DNA of 27,557 nucleotides from a virus: IMG/VR virus record IMGVR_UViG_3300030107_001378, positions 1-27,557 of that record; one strand, 5' to 3'. Positions 10,490-22,587 of the stretch are shown in pieces (position 1 is the stretch's first letter; the number at the start of each line of letters is the position of its first letter). The notes beneath the pieces are model-generated. The model was given only the letters and a program-made list of their open reading frames with translations, did no database searches and was not told where the DNA came from. Position numbers and translations under genes: made by a program.

Positions 10490-10965
10490 GCATTTTCACA
10501 GACGTAAAAGACCTCGCAGGAGGAGTAAAACAAAGTAAACAATGGTATAGAGAGCAACTCCAGTATGGGTTGGAGGATTATGTTGGCGGTTTTACTGTAG
10601 GTGACATTATATTTTTCAATTATTCAGCTCAGACACCAGACTTAAAGTGGTGGGATACCTTTCCTATGGTACTAATCACAGATGTAGATTATCAGAAGAT
10701 GCAATTCTCTGGCGGTAATATGCACTATTTACGTCCAAACTCTCGTAAAAGTATGGCATCTACATGGTCTGCGGGTAGTATTGCATATCCTAAGCGTTGC
10801 CACCATAAATACTTTATGTCTAGTGTGACTAGAGCATATAATGTCCCTTCCGAGGAATTGAAAGATATGACACCGCTTCCAGTTGAGCAATTTGTTATTA
10901 GACCACCAGGTTTAGGTAGAGTGATGGAAGTACCAAGCAGCATAATTTGGGGTAGACTTAAATGA
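10486..10965 (+). CDS. Conserved cyanophage protein of the tail region
   Basis: 159 aa, aromatic-rich, no membrane segment or signal peptide. Notable segments: DLAGGVKQSKQWYREQLQYGL at the start, GDIIFFNYSAQTPDLKWWDTFPMVLITDVD in the middle, HYLRPNSRKSM, and CHHKYFMSSVTRAYNVP. I recognise it as a recurrent cyanomyovirus protein between gp4 and the tube-like gene, but know no function. The location among late tail genes and ATGA overlaps on both sides suggest a virion or assembly protein (inference). Confidence 0.75.
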   Translation: MSIFTDVKDLAGGVKQSKQWYREQLQYGLEDYVGGFTVGDIIFFNYSAQTPDLKWWDTFPMVLITDVDYQKMQFSGGNMHYLRPNSRKSMASTWSAGSIAYPKRCHHKYFMSSVTRAYNVPSEELKDMTPLPVEQFVIRPPGLGRVMEVPSSIIWGRLK

Positions 10966-11699
10966 GTCAGAATAGTTTTTCAATATTCAGAGACCTGGTA
11001 GTATCAGGTCAAAGGGAACCTGCTAGGTCCAATCTTTTTGGTGTGAAGATATATCTACCTCCATGTATACTTGCTAATGAAGCAGGAATTAAGAGAGATC
11101 AGAGAGATGCAGCAATAGCAATTAACTTTTTTGCAGAGTCAGTTTCAGTACCTGCTAGAAGAATTCAAGGTGAGCAAGTTAAAGCTGGTTGGCAAGGTGC
11201 AGCATATAATGTTGCAAGAGAGCAGCAAAATGGTCAGATGGATGTCAGCTTCATGGTAGATAAGAAGTTATTCCATCGTAAGTTTCTTGAGCAGTGGATG
11301 AATTATACTGTCGCTGACCAAGAGAATAGAGCAACAATATACGATGAATATACAACTAATATCGTTGTGCAGAAGTGGGAGCTTGCATCCCCTGTTAACT
11401 GGAGTGCTATAACTGAGAGTGGTACACAGTATACTCAGAGACTTAATATGGTAACAGGAGTATGGCAATTCTTCGGAGCATGGCCTGCTGATATGGGAGG
11501 ATTATCATTTAATAATGGTCCTGCTAGCTTAGTTAAGTTTAGTACTAAATTCAATTACGAGAGATATAGATTTGATACTGTTGGTGCTGAGGAATTGAAT
11601 TATAATACTCCAGATAAGTTTATAACTTCAGCATCTGAAGGTGTAGAAACTGTAGGATTAAGTCAAAATCAACAAGAAGCAGCCCAGTTTGGTGTCTAA
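10962..11699 (+). CDS. gp19/gp54-like tail-tube-fold protein, probable tube initiator
   Basis: 245 aa. EPARSNLFGVKIYLPP, the FFAESVSVPARRIQGEQVKAGWQGAAYNVAREQQNGQMDVSFMVD block, and FHRKFLEQWMNYTV are typical of the T4 gp19/gp54 tail-tube fold. It is longer than gp19 (163 aa). Main tail tube genes of cyanophages normally sit beside the sheath gene, which is not in this window, so the likely role is gp54, the baseplate protein on which the tube starts. gp48 being nearby agrees. The gp54 assignment is inference. Confidence 0.72.
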   Translation: MSQNSFSIFRDLVVSGQREPARSNLFGVKIYLPPCILANEAGIKRDQRDAAIAINFFAESVSVPARRIQGEQVKAGWQGAAYNVAREQQNGQMDVSFMVDKKLFHRKFLEQWMNYTVADQENRATIYDEYTTNIVVQKWELASPVNWSAITESGTQYTQRLNMVTGVWQFFGAWPADMGGLSFNNGPASLVKFSTKFNYERYRFDTVGAEELNYNTPDKFITSASEGVETVGLSQNQQEAAQFGV

Positions 11700-11724: not shown

Positions 11725-12429
11725 ATGCCATTACCTAAGTTAGCCATACCTGAGTATGAAGCGACCCTGCCTGTTACAGGCACAAAAATATCATATAGAC
11801 CATTTCTAGTTAAGGAAGAAAAACTACTCTACCTTGCTATGGAGTCGCAAGACAACAAGCAGATGGTCAAAGCAGTGAAGACTATAATCAAAAACTGTAC
11901 CAATTTAAAGTCTAAGGTTGAAGATCTCGCTACTTTCGAGATTGAATATATCTTCCTTAAGATCAGATCTGTTGCGGTTGGTGAGACAAGTGAGTTTAAA
12001 GTCACATGTCCAGATGATGAGAAGACGCAAGTCAACGTTGAGATACCTCTTGGAGAAGTTGGTGTTATTGTTCCTGATGGACATAATGCTAAGATCGATT
12101 TAGATGGTAATGTTGGTATTGTGATGAAATATCCTTCATTGGATGTATTCATTCAGCAAAACCTTACTGATAATCCTGATATACAGGATATATTTGCACT
12201 TGCTGCTAGTTGTATTGGTCAAGTATATGATGCAGAAGAGGTCTATGATTCTTTCTCTCATAAAGAGGCATTAGAATTCCTTGAGAATTTGAATGCGGAT
12301 CAATTCCAAAAGGTTCAGACATTCTTTGAGACCATGCCTAAGTTGTCTTATACTTTAGAAGTATATAATCCTAACACTAAGAAGAAGAGTGATTTGGTAC
12401 TGGAGGGACTAGCAAGTTTTTTCGAGTAG
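11725..12429 (+). CDS. 26: Baseplate hub assembly protein gp26
   Basis: 234 aa (T4 gp26 is 208). The N-terminus PLPKLAIPEYEATLPVTGTKISYRPFLVKEEKLLYLAMESQD and the later IEYIFLKIRSVAVGE are the T4_baseplate (gp26) family pattern. The middle has a beta-rich insertion, and the C-terminus has the repeated YTLEVYNPNTKKKSDLVLEGL. Known role: baseplate hub assembly. The last codons contain the slippery run T-TTT-TTC (12417-12423), six bases before the stop... a -1 shift there joins the next ORF in frame (see the recoding feature), as in other phages' tail chaperones located just before the tape measure gene. Confidence 0.85.
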   Translation: MPLPKLAIPEYEATLPVTGTKISYRPFLVKEEKLLYLAMESQDNKQMVKAVKTIIKNCTNLKSKVEDLATFEIEYIFLKIRSVAVGETSEFKVTCPDDEKTQVNVEIPLGEVGVIVPDGHNAKIDLDGNVGIVMKYPSLDVFIQQNLTDNPDIQDIFALAASCIGQVYDAEEVYDSFSHKEALEFLENLNADQFQKVQTFFETMPKLSYTLEVYNPNTKKKSDLVLEGLASFFE

Positions 12430-12483
12430 CGTTAATGCATGACAGTCTTGAGAATTACTATAAGACTAACTTCGCATTAATGC
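12417..12483 (+). other. Probable programmed -1 ribosomal frameshift site
   Basis: Slippery heptamer T TTT TTC at 12417-12423, correctly phased to the gene 26 frame. Spacer of 5 nt (12424-12428). Then a 10-bp stem, GCGTTAATGC (12429-12438) with GCATTAATGC (12474-12483), one G-U pair. Inside its loop is a second 6-bp stem, AGTCTT (12444-12449) / AAGACT (12462-12467). After a -1 slip the frame reads CGA GTA GCG TTA and then the whole ORF at 12435-12620, giving a 298-aa fusion (11725-12423 joined to 12423-12620). The ATG of the second ORF (12435) lies inside the stem. Confidence 0.75.
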
Positions 12484-12620
12484 AGCACCACAAATACTCT
12501 TTAACAGAGTTGGAAAATATGATACCTTGGGAACGTGATGTATATGTGAACCTTCTTATTGCTCATATTCAAGAGGAAGAGAGAAGGCAAAAAGCAGAAG
12601 AGAATAAGTCGTCACTCTAA
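12435..12620 (+). CDS. C-terminal frame of a gp26 fusion, tail assembly chaperone-like
   Basis: 61 aa if started at ATG 12435, with no clear Shine-Dalgarno. Helical and charged: YYKTNFALMQHHKYSLTELENMIPWERDVYVNLLIAHIQEEERRQ. The pattern L-x2-M-x-PWERD-x-Y...LL...EE resembles the C-terminal extension of tail assembly chaperones and small hub-assembly proteins (gp51 function is possible but gp51 of T4 is 249 aa). The frame is -1 to gene 26 and is open across the junction, so it is probably expressed mainly as a gp26 fusion. Ends TAATG with the next gene. Confidence 0.75.
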   Translation: MHDSLENYYKTNFALMQHHKYSLTELENMIPWERDVYVNLLIAHIQEEERRQKAEENKSSL

Positions 12621-15061
12621 TGGCAATTAAGAGCTACATTAAGATAAAACCCATCAAGGATGATGGTCCTTTCGCTGGAAGTTTCGATGAAATTCGGAAG
12701 GGTATCAATCGTACTGGTGTAGTAGTAGAGAATATTGCCAATAATAATGTAGAGACTCATAAACTGATTCAGTTTGAGAAGGAGTGGTTGTCAACTACCA
12801 CTGAGAAGGAAACTGAGGTAGCTAAAGAAGAGCAGAAGGATGAAGAGAAGGGATTTAAGAAATGGTTTAAAGGTTTCCGAAACATGTTCCGTCTTAAGAA
12901 TAGAAGGGAACAGGAGAAGAAAGATGAAGCACCAGCAGAACCAGGAGCAGAACCAGAAGAGAAACCACCAAATAAGTTAAAACAAGCAGGTGGTGGGTTT
13001 CTTGGTAACTTTACTAAACTCTTAACTTCTATATTCAAATTTGTAATGATGCAGGTATTACTCAATTGGTTGAGTGATCCAGAGAAAGCTAAGAAAGCAG
13101 GTAAGGTATTCAACCTAGTGATGGCATTAGGTAAGTTTGCTTTGAAGATAGCTACTTGGGGTATTGATACTCTAGCTAGTGGTATTATTAATGTATTTGG
13201 TGGGTTTAAAGAAGGACCAATTAAAGGGACATTAGGTGCATTATTCGGATTCCTTCAGATATTTGCTGGATTTAAGACACTCCAGTATCTTTTAAATCCT
13301 TTTAAGGCAGTATCTGATGTTAAGAAGGTTGCTGGTCTATTCAAGAATACTACTGAGAAGGAAGTAGAGTGGAAGAAGCAAGAGCAATGGCGTAAGTTTG
13401 GATATAAGGATAAAGAGACTGGTAAGATATACACAGAAGAAGAGTATAAAGCACAGAAGAAGTCAGTTGAGAGACAACAGAAGAAGTTAAGAGCACAGGG
13501 TAAGAATGACCAAGCAAGGAAGGTTGGTAAAGGTTTTAATAATAGAGTAAATAACCCTACCAGATTACAGAAGGGTAAGAATGTTGGTAAGGGAATAGGT
13601 GGTAAGTTAATGAAACCTGGTGCACAGAAGGGATTAGCAGTAGCAGGTGGTCTCAGTCGTATGGCATCAGGTATTGCTATGGGTGAGGACAAGACTACCG
13701 CAGTTGGTGCAGGTCTTGGTCAAGCAGCAGGTGGTATGTTAGGTGCTGCTGCTGGTACTGCATTATTGGGTCCATTCCTTGGACCATTTGCACCTATAGT
13801 AGGTAATGCTATTGGTAGTTTCTTAGGTGAGTGGGTAGGTAAGACATTCTTACCAATGATTAAACCACTCTTTGAACCTATTCAGAAGATGTTTGGTATG
13901 TGGTTTGGTTTAATTAAACAGATAGCTGATGAGACAGGTATCACAGAATTCTTAGGTACCTTCTTTAAATTCGTAGGAGAGATTGGTAAGGTATTATTTA
14001 ATATAATTGGATGGATAATGAAACCTATCCAGTGGTTATTGGGTGGTGCACTCAAGGTACTTGGAGGTGTTATAAGTTTTATTATTAAAGCTGCTAAGAA
14101 TATATTTGCATTTATGATCAATCCTATAGGATTTGCATGGAAAATCATAAGACGTAAGGATCCTGGTAAGGATGTAAAACTGGAAGAGTTTGGTGATGGT
14201 GGTGAGATGGTTATCGCTAAAGGTAAACCTGCTAGGAAGTTACAGTCATTTGCTGGTGGTGGACCGACAAGAATTTCACTTACTAATGAGGATATAGAGC
14301 CACCTCAATTTGTATACAGTCATCAGAGGTTTACTAGTAAGATCACAGAGCATGTTAAAAATGGTGAGTTAGTTGAGTTGAAGAAGGAGAAGGAATTTTA
14401 TGAGGTAATGGGATCTATCTATTATCACATCCTTATGAAGCATAATGATGATATTCTTGGTAAGTTGATTAGTATGAAGTTACTTAAACCACATCATACT
14501 ATTAGAGATGTCATTGAGGGTAGTGCAGCTAATCATATCAAACCAGAGATACTATATCCTATCTTTAAAGGAAGTGAAGCACAGAAGTTAAGTGATGAGG
14601 AATCAAGAGAAAGGACAAAAGCATTCTATAAGAGACACAACCTTGAGATAGGTCAATCATGGGTAGCTGATAACTTTGCAAAGGGAGGCGAGGTAAATAT
14701 TAAAAATATTAATAATGCCTATTTTGAAAGGGGTGGTGAGGTAAAGAACATCCATAATAATTTCTTTGCAAGGGGTGGTGAGGTAAAGACTAAACCTATT
14801 AAGAGTGTCTATAAGGTACCACAATTCTCTATGGGTGGTAACGTACCAGACCTAGGTGATATAGAGGCAATGACTGAGACTAGGGATATGGCACTCAAAG
14901 AATTCCAATATAAGAATCAGAGGGATAGTGATATGGAAAATATAATATTACCTCCTAGGATAATTACTATACAATCTACAGTACCAATCATAAATAATAT
15001 TGCTGCTGGTAATAAAGCCACGCCAGTATATACTGCACCATCACCACTATTCACTTGTTGA
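12620..15061 (+). CDS. Tape-measure-like tail protein A (813 aa)
   Basis: Charged N-terminal helical part with a Lys/Glu-rich and Pro-rich stretch (about 60-117), then long hydrophobic helices at about 127-151, 163-195, 202-226, a Gly/Ala zipper region at 361-408 (AVGAGLGQAAGGMLGAAAG), and 411-510. A basic segment lies at 248-333. The C-terminal third contains three F-x-x-GGEV repeats (see repeat). Composition, size and position behind a chaperone-like frameshift gene fit a tape measure protein (T4 gp29 role, though longer). Clearly related in layout to the next gene. Weak point: no direct motif proves the function. Confidence 0.7.
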   Translation: MAIKSYIKIKPIKDDGPFAGSFDEIRKGINRTGVVVENIANNNVETHKLIQFEKEWLSTTTEKETEVAKEEQKDEEKGFKKWFKGFRNMFRLKNRREQEKKDEAPAEPGAEPEEKPPNKLKQAGGGFLGNFTKLLTSIFKFVMMQVLLNWLSDPEKAKKAGKVFNLVMALGKFALKIATWGIDTLASGIINVFGGFKEGPIKGTLGALFGFLQIFAGFKTLQYLLNPFKAVSDVKKVAGLFKNTTEKEVEWKKQEQWRKFGYKDKETGKIYTEEEYKAQKKSVERQQKKLRAQGKNDQARKVGKGFNNRVNNPTRLQKGKNVGKGIGGKLMKPGAQKGLAVAGGLSRMASGIAMGEDKTTAVGAGLGQAAGGMLGAAAGTALLGPFLGPFAPIVGNAIGSFLGEWVGKTFLPMIKPLFEPIQKMFGMWFGLIKQIADETGITEFLGTFFKFVGEIGKVLFNIIGWIMKPIQWLLGGALKVLGGVISFIIKAAKNIFAFMINPIGFAWKIIRRKDPGKDVKLEEFGDGGEMVIAKGKPARKLQSFAGGGPTRISLTNEDIEPPQFVYSHQRFTSKITEHVKNGELVELKKEKEFYEVMGSIYYHILMKHNDDILGKLISMKLLKPHHTIRDVIEGSAANHIKPEILYPIFKGSEAQKLSDEESRERTKAFYKRHNLEIGQSWVADNFAKGGEVNIKNINNAYFERGGEVKNIHNNFFARGGEVKTKPIKSVYKVPQFSMGGNVPDLGDIEAMTETRDMALKEFQYKNQRDSDMENIILPPRIITIQSTVPIINNIAAGNKATPVYTAPSPLFTC
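14675..14785 (+). repeat. Three F-x-x-GGEV repeats in protein A
   Basis: Residues FAKGGEV, FERGGEV and FARGGEV begin at bases 14675, 14723 and 14765 (16 and 14 codons apart), each followed by Asn/Lys-rich linkers. F-A-x-GG motifs are frequent in tape-measure C-termini; related FAKGGW occurs in the next protein. Confidence 0.75.
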
Positions 15062-15064
15062 TAA

Positions 15065-17530
15065 ATGGCAGAAGTAAAAGCTAAAGTACAGAAAGCAGCG
15101 TTGTATAAGATGATCTCTTATAAAGGGATCGAAGGTAAACAGAATTCTTATACACCGTTAACTGCTGCTGCAAGATTACCTAAGACTGAGAAGAGCATTC
15201 AAAGGGGAATGACCTCTGTCATGATGGGTCTTAATGCTTTAGGACGTACTCTTAACAGCATTGCTATCAACACACAGTTCATGTTGGAAGCATGGAAAGG
15301 TAGTATTAGACAGGGTATAAAGGATAAATCTGCTCTACTTAAACAAGAAGAGAAGACTAAGAAAGTAGAGAAAATATCTAAGACCAAGAAGGATAAAGCA
15401 ACAGAGAAGCAGAGGAAGTTAGATAAGAGAAATAAGGATGAAGAGGAAGCAGAGAAGACTAAACCAAAACCATTTGGTCAGAAGGTAGTAGAAGGTGTAA
15501 AGAGTACAGGATCAGCACTATTCAGTAGTTTGTTGGGGTTATTCAGCTGGTTGGGTAAGTTAATAGCAATACCAGTCCTTATGTGGATAGGTAATAATCC
15601 AAAGAAGGTGCAGAAACTTATTCAGATATTGGCATCTATTGGTAAGTTTGTATTCAATGTTGTTTCATTCCTAGGAGGGATGGCACTTGATGGTATTATT
15701 AATTTCCTTGAGAATCCCTTAAGTCTTAAAGGTTTATTCGGTGTAGTCCAGTTTCTACTGGGTGCTGTACCGTTATTCGCAGGTCTGGTATTCCTTAAGA
15801 ATCCTAAACTATTACTAGACACTGCTGGTAAGGTAATAGGAGGTTTAACTAATGGTCTTAAGAATCTGTTTGGGGCACAGGGTAAGGATGCAAAGCTCAG
15901 GCAGTTCCAACTTAAGAAGATAGGAGGTAAGAAAGGTAATTTCTTTTCTAGTAAGTTTGGTAAGATTGCTACTGGATTAGGTGCTGGTGCAGTTGCTGCT
16001 GGAACAGTCGCTGCTGCTGGAGGTACTGAGGGAGAAATAATTGGTGCTGGAGCTGGTGCTGCTGGCGGTCAGATGCTTGGTGCTAAACTAGGTGAGATGT
16101 CTGGTATTCCAGGTATGGGTGCTGTTGGTGGTATGATTGGTACCATGGCAGGTGGTGCTGTTGGTAAAGCAATAGGTCCTATGTTAGATCCAATCATCGG
16201 ACCTGTTAAGGACTTCTTTGGAGAGATCAGTAAGATATTTAATACTGTATTGTCAGCTATTAAAGATCCACTTGAAGACTTCTTTAAGACATTGGGAGCA
16301 TTCATGAGTGGTATACTTGAGGTTGTAGAACCACATATGCCATTGATAGGTAAGATAATAAGTGTGGGATTACAGGTGATGTTTGCACCTCTATTCTTAG
16401 GTATCAGAGCATTAACTGCTGTGATGAAACTATTCACTGGTGGGAAGGATGAAAAGGGTGGAGATGTCAAAGGTGATACTGGAAAGGAAGGTGATACTGG
16501 TGGTAAGACCATAACATCTAAGACTGAAGGTAGTGCATCGATGAATTTTGAAACTGGTGAGATGGAGTATACTGGTGATGTTACTCCTGACAGTTTAACT
16601 GATATGAAGATTGCTAGGGTGAGAGCACGTATGCATCCTGGATTGTCTAAAGAAGAGAAGAAAGGTTATGAGGAGCAGATAGCATATCTTGAGAAGCATA
16701 GAAAGACAGGTGGAATAGAGATAGTTAAGGGAGATGAGGGTGAAGCAGACCCTATGGGATTTGCCAAAGGTGGTTGGATTAATGGACCTCAGTCAGGATA
16801 TCCTGTATCATTAGATGGCAAGAGAACATCATTCATTGGTCACGGTAAAGAGTGGGTTGGTAGAAAGGCAGGTGGTAAAGCATTTGTGGTACCTTTTGAT
16901 ACTCCTGCTACTAAGACTAGTCCTGGACTCACTGCAAAGAGAATGGGTCAAGCTAAGAGACAAGGTTACTCTCTACCTTCAGCAATGGATTCTAGACTTA
17001 GACCTTATAAAGCTGGTGGTGAAATAATTAAACCTAAGAGAAAGAAGGGAATGGGTTCTTGGTTGAAGGATACTCTTAATAAGACACCTCAAGTAAGGTT
17101 AGCGAAGTGGCTTGGTAATAAAGCAAAGAATATAGTTACTGCAAAGGATGAAGAGGGTAAACCAAAGGGTGTAATGAGATGGTTAGCAGGTGCTGCTGAC
17201 CAAGCAACTGGTGGATTCTTTGATTTTGATAAGCAAGGACATTCAATGTATCAAGCTTCTGGTATAATGAAGAAGACAGGTGAGATCATAGATAATGCTA
17301 AACAGAGAGCACAAGAAGACAAATATAATAAAATGAGAAAGTCGATTGAGGAATCGCAAGGTCTTGTAAATATTAATGCTGGTGGTGGAGGTATACCAAT
17401 GGGATCCAGTGCAGTTGATGATGTACCTATCCTTATTCCAGGAGATGACCATTTGGATGCTGATAAGTATCTAAAACCTAAGTATGGTTTAATCGCTGAG
17501 TTTTTGACAGATCCTGTGGAGTTTATGTAG
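15065..17530 (+). CDS. Tape-measure-like tail protein B (821 aa), paralogue of A
   Basis: N-terminal helical part, then Lys-rich coiled stretch (about 92-136) and hydrophobic helices at about 150-176, 183-215, 222-245. A Gly/Ala region lies at 300-370 (GAGAGAAGGQMLGAKLG) with further hydrophobic helices to 457. It matches protein A block by block: MWIGNNPKKVQKLIQILASIGKF here against NWLSDPEKAKKAGKVFNLVMALGKF there, then ...DGIIN / SGIIN. The C-terminal part has FAKGGWINGPQSGYPVSLDG and GKEWVGRKAGGKAFVVPFD, a pattern common near tape-measure C-termini. Starts 3 nt after protein A. Role inferred from these features. Confidence 0.7.
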   Translation: MAEVKAKVQKAALYKMISYKGIEGKQNSYTPLTAAARLPKTEKSIQRGMTSVMMGLNALGRTLNSIAINTQFMLEAWKGSIRQGIKDKSALLKQEEKTKKVEKISKTKKDKATEKQRKLDKRNKDEEEAEKTKPKPFGQKVVEGVKSTGSALFSSLLGLFSWLGKLIAIPVLMWIGNNPKKVQKLIQILASIGKFVFNVVSFLGGMALDGIINFLENPLSLKGLFGVVQFLLGAVPLFAGLVFLKNPKLLLDTAGKVIGGLTNGLKNLFGAQGKDAKLRQFQLKKIGGKKGNFFSSKFGKIATGLGAGAVAAGTVAAAGGTEGEIIGAGAGAAGGQMLGAKLGEMSGIPGMGAVGGMIGTMAGGAVGKAIGPMLDPIIGPVKDFFGEISKIFNTVLSAIKDPLEDFFKTLGAFMSGILEVVEPHMPLIGKIISVGLQVMFAPLFLGIRALTAVMKLFTGGKDEKGGDVKGDTGKEGDTGGKTITSKTEGSASMNFETGEMEYTGDVTPDSLTDMKIARVRARMHPGLSKEEKKGYEEQIAYLEKHRKTGGIEIVKGDEGEADPMGFAKGGWINGPQSGYPVSLDGKRTSFIGHGKEWVGRKAGGKAFVVPFDTPATKTSPGLTAKRMGQAKRQGYSLPSAMDSRLRPYKAGGEIIKPKRKKGMGSWLKDTLNKTPQVRLAKWLGNKAKNIVTAKDEEGKPKGVMRWLAGAADQATGGFFDFDKQGHSMYQASGIMKKTGEIIDNAKQRAQEDKYNKMRKSIEESQGLVNINAGGGGIPMGSSAVDDVPILIPGDDHLDADKYLKPKYGLIAEFLTDPVEFM

Positions 17531-19773: not shown

Positions 19774-22587
19774 ATGGCACAACGTACTGATTTCCTAGGA
19801 AGGGATGGATACACTTGGTGGGTAGGAGAGGTTGAGGATGTAGAAGACCCCTCTGAGACTGGTCGTGTCAAGGTGCGTATTCTTGGGTGGTATACAGGTA
19901 ATCAAGAAGGACAGGCATATTTAAAGGAAGTACCTACTAAAGTCTTACCTTGGGCAACAGTGTTGCTTCCATGTGACCAACCACAAACTAAATCAACTGG
20001 TACCACAACAGAATTACAGTGTGGTGCATGGGTATTGGGTTTCTTCCTTGATGGTGAAGAAGCACAGTTACCTTGTGTACTAGGTGCATTCAGAGGATTT
20101 AGTCAAGAGAAGAAAGAAGCTAGTACTACTATTGCAGATCCAACTGTTGCTAAGAAGTTAGAGACTAATACACCCCAGAAAGAGAATATGCAGGGGGAGA
20201 AGCAGTTAGATGGTAACTCATTCCCTAAACATCCACGCACACCAGGATCTGCTACTGGTAAAGTTGAGGAAGCAAGAGGTGCTGGTCTTACTGCTGCTGA
20301 AACAACGGTACCTGGAAACCCAGTAAGTAACCCTAGTAAACCACCTATTACTGCTCAGTCTATTGCTGATGGTGTTGCTGGTCCTGCTGGTGCTGGATTT
20401 GAGAAAGACTTAAAGAGAATGCTCACTCAGTTGGGTGAGACAGCAGCATCTATGTCCTCTGGACCTGGTGGATTTGTATCTGTTATCACTGGTAATAAGA
20501 TAGCAGGAGATAAGGTTAGGCAGCAACTTGGAACTGCAATGAACTTCCTTGCTGGTGGTATATCAGGTATTCTTGCACCTCTAAAAGAGATGTTAGCGAA
20601 GTTAATCGCTGAGGTTGTAGGAATGTTGGTGAAGATTATATCTCAGTTTATTCCTATAGTAGTTGTCAATCTATTGATGACATTCCTAGAGCAGATCTTT
20701 GCTCTATTCTGTGCTAAGACACCAATGTGGTTAGGACTGGTGAAAGGGGCACTGAGTGATACGGCAAACTTTGCCAACCAAATGGCGAGCCTTGCTGTAG
20801 ATAAGATAGCCACTAGCAGTATAGCTGGTAAGATTGACTCTGCTGTTAAAGGTTTAAGTAATCGTATCTTGAGTGGTATCAAGGAAGCAATGAATCGTGT
20901 TAAGAGTGTTGCTGGTGATGTTATCTCTGCTATTAGTGCTGCTAAAGGTATGGCAGGTGCAGCAAGTAAACTAGGTGATACTGTCTCAATGATATTTGAG
21001 TTTGACTTCACTTCATTAGATTGGGGTAGTTTAATCCAAATCCTTCTTGCTATTCTTGCAGCACTATTCAAAAAGAGTTGTAACAGGAAGATAAAGAGGC
21101 CGAAATCAAAGTCGTGGTTCCCACTGATAGGTACCACGGAATGTGACAATATAGAGGATGCTATTAAAGGCACACCATATGAGAATGTAGATTTCTTTTA
21201 TGCAGCTGGTGGTGCTGACAGTACTTCTAGTGTTGTTAATATGGCATCAACACCTACAACTTCAACAACTAAGCAGAAGAATTACATAGACACAATGTTT
21301 GAAGGTGTTAATCCTTATTTAATGCAGACATATAGTGCATTGAATGGTACAAGGATTATAGATGATGCTACACCAAATAAAGAGAAGAGAATGGTTACTG
21401 GTCCTGGTGGTGTCAGTACTTTTGAAGATAAGTTTGGTAATAGACACACCAATGTACCAAACTGTGAGACTAAGATAGTTGCTAAGGATAAGTGTGAGAA
21501 TATTCAAAAGAATTATGCCATGACTATTGATGGTGACTTCACTCTTAAGGTTGGTGGTAATATGCACTTTGAGGTTGGTGGATCTTGGAATACACATGTA
21601 TCTCAAGGACCACAGGCAGAGTCCTCTGGTGATAGTAGTTCACCTGATAGTACTACTACTGGTGGAGCTACAAAGGCAACTGATACTAATGTTACTCAGG
21701 GAAGAGTATCTGCTGATGTGATCAGTCAGTCTCAATCATCTACTATTACTGATGCTAGTCAGGCAGCAGTAACTGCTGCTGAGACTTCTGATTCAGGAAC
21801 TGCGGATGATGCAACATCTGGTGCTTCTACAACAACAGCAATGTATAGTAAGATAGATAAGAGATTAGCGAAGTTAGTGGAAGAGAATGTAGGTGGTTTC
21901 TATCCAGTTGAGGACATACCATTTGCACCTGATGCAGACTATATGGGTAGGACACAGTTTGGTCCTCAACTATCAGGATCTTTATCTGATGATACTGAGC
22001 AGAAGTCTTCTGCTAGATTTGAAGGTGATCGTGATGTGTCAATAGGTGGTGAGTATAAGATGCAGTTTGCTAAGGGAAGCTTATCTGGTATTGAGTCAAC
22101 ACAGATTGTATCACAGGATATTAAGATAGAAGGTAATGCTATTGAGTTGGTCGCAGATGGTGAGATAATACAACAGGCAAACTGGATAACATCATTCCTA
22201 AACTCAGGTAGATTTGAGTTTATTGCATTATTTAATCAGACATCAACATCATTAACAGGACAGTTTAATCTAGTTAAGGGTTGTATTGTTGATATTACTA
22301 CTGACTTACCATTCCCAGGAGTTGCACCACCAGCACAGGTTAGAATTACTGTTGGTCAACAATTACCTGGCAGTATGGCAGATGTATTGGCTGGATCTCA
22401 AAACTGTTTCCATGCCACCTTTATATCAGCACCTACTGGTGTTATTGCTGAGTTTGTACCACAGGGTGCTATTATTAACCAGTGTAACAACGGTCTAGGA
22501 GCATACGTGGTCAACAATGGTTATATGGCAGTGGGTTGCTCTGCTGGTCCTTGTCAGATCTTCGGTTTACCAGTCCTTCTCAACTAG
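19774..22587 (+). CDS. 5: Baseplate hub/needle protein, gp5-type without visible lysozyme
   Basis: 937 aa. N-terminal OB-fold as in gp5/VgrG (about 15-110: WWVGEVEDVEDPSETGRVKVRILGWY, LPWATVLLPCDQP, GAWVLGFFLDGEEAQLPCVLGAF). A linker rich in Pro/Ala/Thr follows, then a long hydrophobic and helical section (about 210-440, including FIPIVVVNLLMTFLEQIFALF). The C-terminal third is beta-helical: FTLKVGGNMHFEVGGSWNTH (about 590-608), VSIGGEYKM, IKIEGNAIELVADG. Known T4 gp5: OB-fold, lysozyme, beta-helix needle. I see no Glu-Asp-Thr lysozyme core in the middle; the helical section takes its place. Follows gp27 functionally but is split from it by cp12-cpeT. Confidence 0.78.
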   Translation: MAQRTDFLGRDGYTWWVGEVEDVEDPSETGRVKVRILGWYTGNQEGQAYLKEVPTKVLPWATVLLPCDQPQTKSTGTTTELQCGAWVLGFFLDGEEAQLPCVLGAFRGFSQEKKEASTTIADPTVAKKLETNTPQKENMQGEKQLDGNSFPKHPRTPGSATGKVEEARGAGLTAAETTVPGNPVSNPSKPPITAQSIADGVAGPAGAGFEKDLKRMLTQLGETAASMSSGPGGFVSVITGNKIAGDKVRQQLGTAMNFLAGGISGILAPLKEMLAKLIAEVVGMLVKIISQFIPIVVVNLLMTFLEQIFALFCAKTPMWLGLVKGALSDTANFANQMASLAVDKIATSSIAGKIDSAVKGLSNRILSGIKEAMNRVKSVAGDVISAISAAKGMAGAASKLGDTVSMIFEFDFTSLDWGSLIQILLAILAALFKKSCNRKIKRPKSKSWFPLIGTTECDNIEDAIKGTPYENVDFFYAAGGADSTSSVVNMASTPTTSTTKQKNYIDTMFEGVNPYLMQTYSALNGTRIIDDATPNKEKRMVTGPGGVSTFEDKFGNRHTNVPNCETKIVAKDKCENIQKNYAMTIDGDFTLKVGGNMHFEVGGSWNTHVSQGPQAESSGDSSSPDSTTTGGATKATDTNVTQGRVSADVISQSQSSTITDASQAAVTAAETSDSGTADDATSGASTTTAMYSKIDKRLAKLVEENVGGFYPVEDIPFAPDADYMGRTQFGPQLSGSLSDDTEQKSSARFEGDRDVSIGGEYKMQFAKGSLSGIESTQIVSQDIKIEGNAIELVADGEIIQQANWITSFLNSGRFEFIALFNQTSTSLTGQFNLVKGCIVDITTDLPFPGVAPPAQVRITVGQQLPGSMADVLAGSQNCFHATFISAPTGVIAEFVPQGAIINQCNNGLGAYVVNNGYMAVGCSAGPCQIFGLPVLLN

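Follow-up and report, generated by a model that had tools for sequence, protein, structure and literature searches.

Genes and features at the end of gene 26

We analysed a 27,557-nt stretch of viral DNA (the window; IMG/VR virus record IMGVR_UViG_3300030107_001378), in which a programmed -1 frameshift had been proposed to fuse the product of a T4-like gene 26 to the next ORF. The features at this locus are as follows.

10962-11699, + strand: tail tube protein gene, T4 gp19-like, the upstream neighbour (phrog_45, 2.7e-35; PF06841, 0.0016)
11725-12429, + strand: gene 26, short form, a TAC-N and T4 gp26 homologue of 234 aa (PF12322, 1.6e-66; phrog_150, 3.5e-75)
12402-12407, + strand: Shine-Dalgarno (SD)-like GGAGGG, 9 nt upstream of the heptamer
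12417-12423, + strand: putative slippery heptamer T TTT TTC
12423-12620, + strand: region that a slip would add in the -1 frame, encoding the C-terminal domain of gp51 (RVALMHDSLENYYKTNF...; phrog_634, 2.5e-32 for 12417-12617)
12427-12429, + strand: TAG that terminates the short form in the 0 frame, read from the sequence
12429-12438, + strand: putative outer stimulator stem, 5' arm GCGTTAATGC
12435-12620, + strand: ORF2 in the form expected from annotation, with its ATG in the stem; most likely no independent gene
12444-12449, + strand: inner stem, 5' arm AGTCTT
12462-12467, + strand: inner stem, 3' arm AAGACT
12474-12483, + strand: putative outer stimulator stem, 3' arm GCATTAATGC
12620-15061, + strand: 813-aa ORF, tape-measure candidate by position

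In a Pfam profile search, the gene 26 product matches PF12322 over its full length (224.6 bits against a curated cut-off of 24.5), and T4 gp26 can be aligned with it from end to end. The AlphaFold2 model of the protein has a pLDDT of 87 and its top structural match in the PDB is the HK97 tail assembly chaperone (2OB9), at a non-significant E value of 0.26; a sequence search of solved structures found nothing relevant. According to the original prediction the tape measure gene follows, which gene order makes plausible and profiles support weakly (6e-6 to 2e-5). Two ORFs of about 815 aa downstream of the site (12620-15061 and 15065-17530) show mixed endolysin and tape-measure profile matches, and 19774-22587 encodes a large gp5-like baseplate hub/tail lysozyme protein (937 aa, phrog_694).

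Position 12417 is the third base of codon 12415-12417 of the ORF 11725-12429, which places the heptamer in the correct phase for an X XXY YYZ site, and the -1 frame runs open into the ORF 12435-12620. A slip would give a fusion of 298 aa with the junction ...LEGLASFF-RVALMHD... and the predicted tryptic junction peptide SDLVLEGLASFFR. The short form ends in ...LASFFE, and a product of reinitiation would begin MHDSLENYYK. The next ORF is most likely the fusion partner, and what had been taken for an unknown ORF carries the C-terminal domain of T4 gp51. Using the PHROG profiles, we found that ORF2 matches the gp51 family (phrog_634) in the profile's second half only (positions 61-120 of 121), and that the score is higher when the translated region begins at the heptamer. 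We rejected ORF2 as a stand-alone protein of the T4 gp51 type: only the C-terminal domain is there, and an N-terminal PF12322 domain of its own is absent. A short form and a C-terminally extended form of one protein are both encoded at the locus, as judged from sequence.

Conservation of the heptamer and coding in the -1 frame

Bare TTTTTTC occurs at chance frequency in the window (5 copies observed, 5.04 expected), so that the case rests on its phase, its place and context, and its conservation. We collected 163 loci, drawn from 80 IMG/VR relatives of 49-89% identity, 78 more distant ones and isolates, which cover marine T4-like phages as well as phages of Sinorhizobium, Pseudomonas, Stenotrophomonas and Vibrio; 99 were left once those of at least 85% identity had been removed. 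The heptamer is kept as TTTTTTC or TTTTTTT in 163 of the 163 loci. It is in phase in every IMG/VR locus that reaches the gp26 stop, and isolate phages of Prochlorococcus, Synechococcus, Sinorhizobium, Pseudomonas, Stenotrophomonas and Vibrio (including PVA8) agree; P-TIM40 and syn9 are examples of isolates with this layout, and a Pseudoalteromonas phage has T TTT TTA. Among the 163 loci, no relative with the overlapping layout has TTC TTT or a third base other than T, and among the Kyanoviridae-like and related phages that reach the gp26 stop every homologue of this layout retains both the heptamer and an open -1 frame. The frameshift is strongly backed by conservation and withstands the refuting condition set with the original prediction.

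The two Phe codons might have been kept solely for the GL..FF motif of the protein, with the heptamer as a by-product; T4 gp26 ends in GLKEFFELL without a heptamer, so FF itself is a protein feature. We regard this reading as highly improbable, given that seven different residues (S, N, D, A, G, H or T) precede TTT TTY and the third base of their codon is T in 99 of 99 loci (P of about 1e-24 under gp26 codon usage, on the assumption of independent sequences, which these are not), that TTT alone is used for the first Phe (99 loci; background 64%), and that the -1 frame remains open and conserved. The distance from heptamer to gp26 stop is 7, 10, 13, 16 or 31 nt among relatives and the register of the heptamer with the -1 ORF is constant, so the -1 frame keeps a fixed position relative to the heptamer and not to the stop.

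Judged by comparison, the -1 frame is coding from the heptamer on, ahead of any start codon. It has no ATG, GTG or TTG before +57 in 19 of the 99 loci (no ATG in 31), and the pattern FFR.AL.H.SLE.Y...NF is kept ahead of that point all the same. Differences in the -1 segment are concentrated at third codon positions (983, 828 and 1543 at first, second and third positions), and in ten loci the frame opens exactly at the heptamer or one codon earlier. Separate translation of ORF2 cannot explain the 19 loci. This weighs heavily against ORF2 as a separate small gene reached by reinitiation (TAG 12427, ATG 12435) next to an incidental heptamer, a reading that the in-frame ATG 6 nt past the stop in the window and the separate gp51 CDS of public records would favour. 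The heptamer is invariant and in phase, the extension is fused to a full N-terminal domain in T4 gp51, and the annotated gp51 starts vary by record (30-61 aa), all of which leaves reinitiation as the sole route very improbable.

A combination of both routes, in which frameshifting gives the long form and reinitiation gives some free C-terminal domain in phages with an early ATG, is unlikely but deserves more weight. The first -1 ATG lies at +15 in 35 of the 99 loci, at +18 in 10 and at +24 in 11; against this, the early start is not conserved among relatives, and a clear SD-like sequence is absent immediately upstream of the ORF2 ATG in the window. A sequencing or assembly frameshift that split one gene has nothing in its favour apart from the split itself and is already refuted, since contigs and isolate genomes, over 160 in all, have the identical split in the identical place.

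A group of more distant phages departs from this pattern. The canonical heptamer is absent from the end of the gp26-like ORF in Ackermannviridae (L087, L171-L185, L188 and L189; among them Mutine, Serratia phage 3M and Klebsiella phage KFM-TASP06) and in Vibrio phage K362 (L088), and in all of these a gp51-like -1 frame overlaps the gp26 stop all the same. The Ackermannviridae ORFs end in ATT TTC ATT TAA or GTT TTC ATC TGA, and their -1 peptide is conserved ahead of the first -1 start codon (+32/+35), which might be explained if just one tRNA-Phe slips on U UUC. The gp51-like C-terminal peptide is unannotated in Mutine and 3M.

Downstream RNA structure and the upstream SD-like element

The anatomy proposed for the signal in the window is as predicted: a 5-nt spacer (12424-12428), a 10-bp outer stem with one G-U pair, a nested stem of 6 bp, and the ORF2 start codon (ATG, 12435-12437) inside the outer stem. 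The region 12429-12490 folds at -19.4 kcal/mol (z = -4.58), and 0 of 200 shuffles were equally stable. Across the relatives, fold z-scores dip at the heptamer and just downstream of it (offsets 0 to +15; mean -1.6, with 34% below -2), as compared to 2-12% below -2 at most offsets distant from the heptamer; stability is otherwise unremarkable along gene 26 and ORF2.

Compensatory changes had been expected in this stem. They are present, in hairpins that are lineage-specific rather than in one shared stem: using RNAalifold, we sought a single consensus stem across clades and found none. The lineage-specific groups were selected once the individual folds had been viewed, which biases their percentages of paired cells upward and affects their two-sided changes less. 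In the window's own clade, 80% of cells are paired as compared to 28-45% when the stem is slid. The excess over column shuffles is modest (cells paired, 2/500; covariation score, 137/500), and RNAalifold retains almost none of the stem. Two-sided changes occur at 4 of the 6 pairs of the inner stem. Repeated ALM(H/Q) codons account for part of the window's palindrome, and the close relatives L004 and L005 fold poorly. The groups A3 and A4 have hairpins that differ from that of the window yet occupy the same place, both with compensatory pairs (A3, GGC[T/A/G]CA...TG[A/T/C]GTC, 4 cells; A4, 10 cells; 0/500 shuffles each). Structure 5-9 nt downstream of the heptamer is seen in the fold of the window, in the clade-wide dip and in two groups with compensatory changes. 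A search of Rfam gave a sub-threshold chance match only.

Upstream, anti-SD pairing is strongest at -12 (mean -6.4 kcal/mol, 99 loci), and the Glu codon of the SD-like element is GAG in 60 of 84 loci as compared to 36% elsewhere in gene 26. P-values for the SD-like signal, like those for the stem, are inflated by relatedness. We infer that the stem and the SD-like element stimulate the slip. In E. coli dnaX, an SD-like element lies about 10 nt upstream of the heptamer A AAA AAG and a stem about 5 nt downstream. The window shares the three-part layout and a homopolymeric-type heptamer with dnaX; it differs in the heptamer itself (T TTT TTC), in the proteins, which are unrelated, and in that its stimulation is deduced from sequence. 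We tentatively suggest, at somewhat less than even odds, that the chaperone genes of the T4 superfamily carry a dnaX-like three-part signal in which heptamer and SD-like element are fixed and the stem has been rebuilt repeatedly in different lineages, and that the Ackermannviridae would add this extension too, by way of a non-canonical site without the standard heptamer.

T4 genes 26 and 51 and the proposed mechanism

T4 gp26 and T4 gp51 both match the whole PF12322 model (BLASTP between the two, 2e-6), and gp51 alone has an extra C-terminal part, which matches phrog_634, the same profile as ORF2. These matches indicate one ancestral protein, of which T4 gp26 represents the short form and gp51 the long form, each now with a gene of its own. 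In 2022, Vladimirov, Gautam and Davidson reportedly identified the separate short and long genes of the T4 type as 26 and 51. The clear link between gp26 and gp51 comes from the Pfam and PHROG profiles and not from direct comparison: BLASTP of T4 gp51 against gp26 of the window gave a weak match, and when profiles were compared, the window's gp26 matched gp51 over a short stretch that is apparently misplaced. The T4 genes are on opposite strands and divergently transcribed, whereas the window has one gene with an overlapping -1 frame. We looked in T4 gene 26 for a remnant of the heptamer and found none; its GL..FF end uses TTC TTT, so a heptamer is not needed to encode this end of the protein. 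Genes 26 and 51 are adjacent on one strand in the RB43-like Pseudotevenvirus PF-CE2, which suggests that separate genes replaced recoding inside the Straboviridae; the Schizotequatrovirus PVA8 retains the heptamer.

Lambda slips on G GGA AAG, a heptamer different from that of the window, where the site is flanked by a stem and SD-like elements. The likeness to lambda gpG/gpGT and other -1 frameshifts of tail chaperones (Xu, Hendrix & Duda 2004) lies in a short form with a frameshifted long form, and in gene order, with the tail tube gene upstream and the tape measure gene (a candidate in the window) downstream. gp26 and gp51 have been named T4 hub-assembly chaperones (PMC3004832). A chaperone role is suggested by the upstream tail tube gene, by homology to T4 gp26 and gp51, and by HK97 2OB9 as the top, non-significant structural match; by analogy, the gp26 pair would be tape-measure chaperones.

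The original prediction knew of no such shift in a T4-like gene 26, a belief that is probably wrong. PMC12846349 attributes poly-T frameshift signals in TAC-N genes of T4-like phages to Vladimirov, Gautam & Davidson 2022 (Virology 566:9-15, doi 10.1016/j.virol.2021.11.003), and PMC10274946 attributes to Vladimirov et al. 2022 that some T4-like phages have a separate short gene and a long fused gene instead. Judging by these two papers, the genes concerned are the ones found here. On the comparative evidence, the locus is a well-supported further example of the known short/long chaperone frameshift; the anatomy of the signal is possibly new, as are the relatives in the Ackermannviridae without a canonical heptamer.

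Comparison of the loci establishes that the heptamer is conserved, that the -1 frame is coding, that the extension is homologous to gp51 and that downstream RNA structure is in excess; the rate of slipping, stimulation by the stem and the SD-like element, and the chaperone role are inferred. We put the probability that one gene gives a tail assembly chaperone in two lengths, 234 aa and, by a -1 frameshift, 298 aa, at about 0.93. The majority of ribosomes would translate gene 26 as far as its stop, and a minority would pause under the influence of the stem about 5 nt downstream and of the upstream GGAGGG, slip one base back on T TTT TTC and continue through the C-terminal domain of gp51. If they work as lambda gpG/gpGT do, the short and long forms would act on the tape measure protein, loading it for polymerisation of the tail tube.

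In many cyanophage and related genomes, a small 'gp51' gene is annotated separately, its start differing from record to record; it is most likely the end of a frameshifted protein. In four isolate records (L082, L089, L090 and L091) the annotated gp51 is 48, 61, 30 and 47 aa long, respectively, and the ribosomal slippage flag is on none of these. The locus offers a clean case in which recoding in one lineage is equivalent to separate paralogous genes in another (T4 genes 26 and 51). It also comes with a set of over 160 loci for dissecting frameshift signals by comparison.
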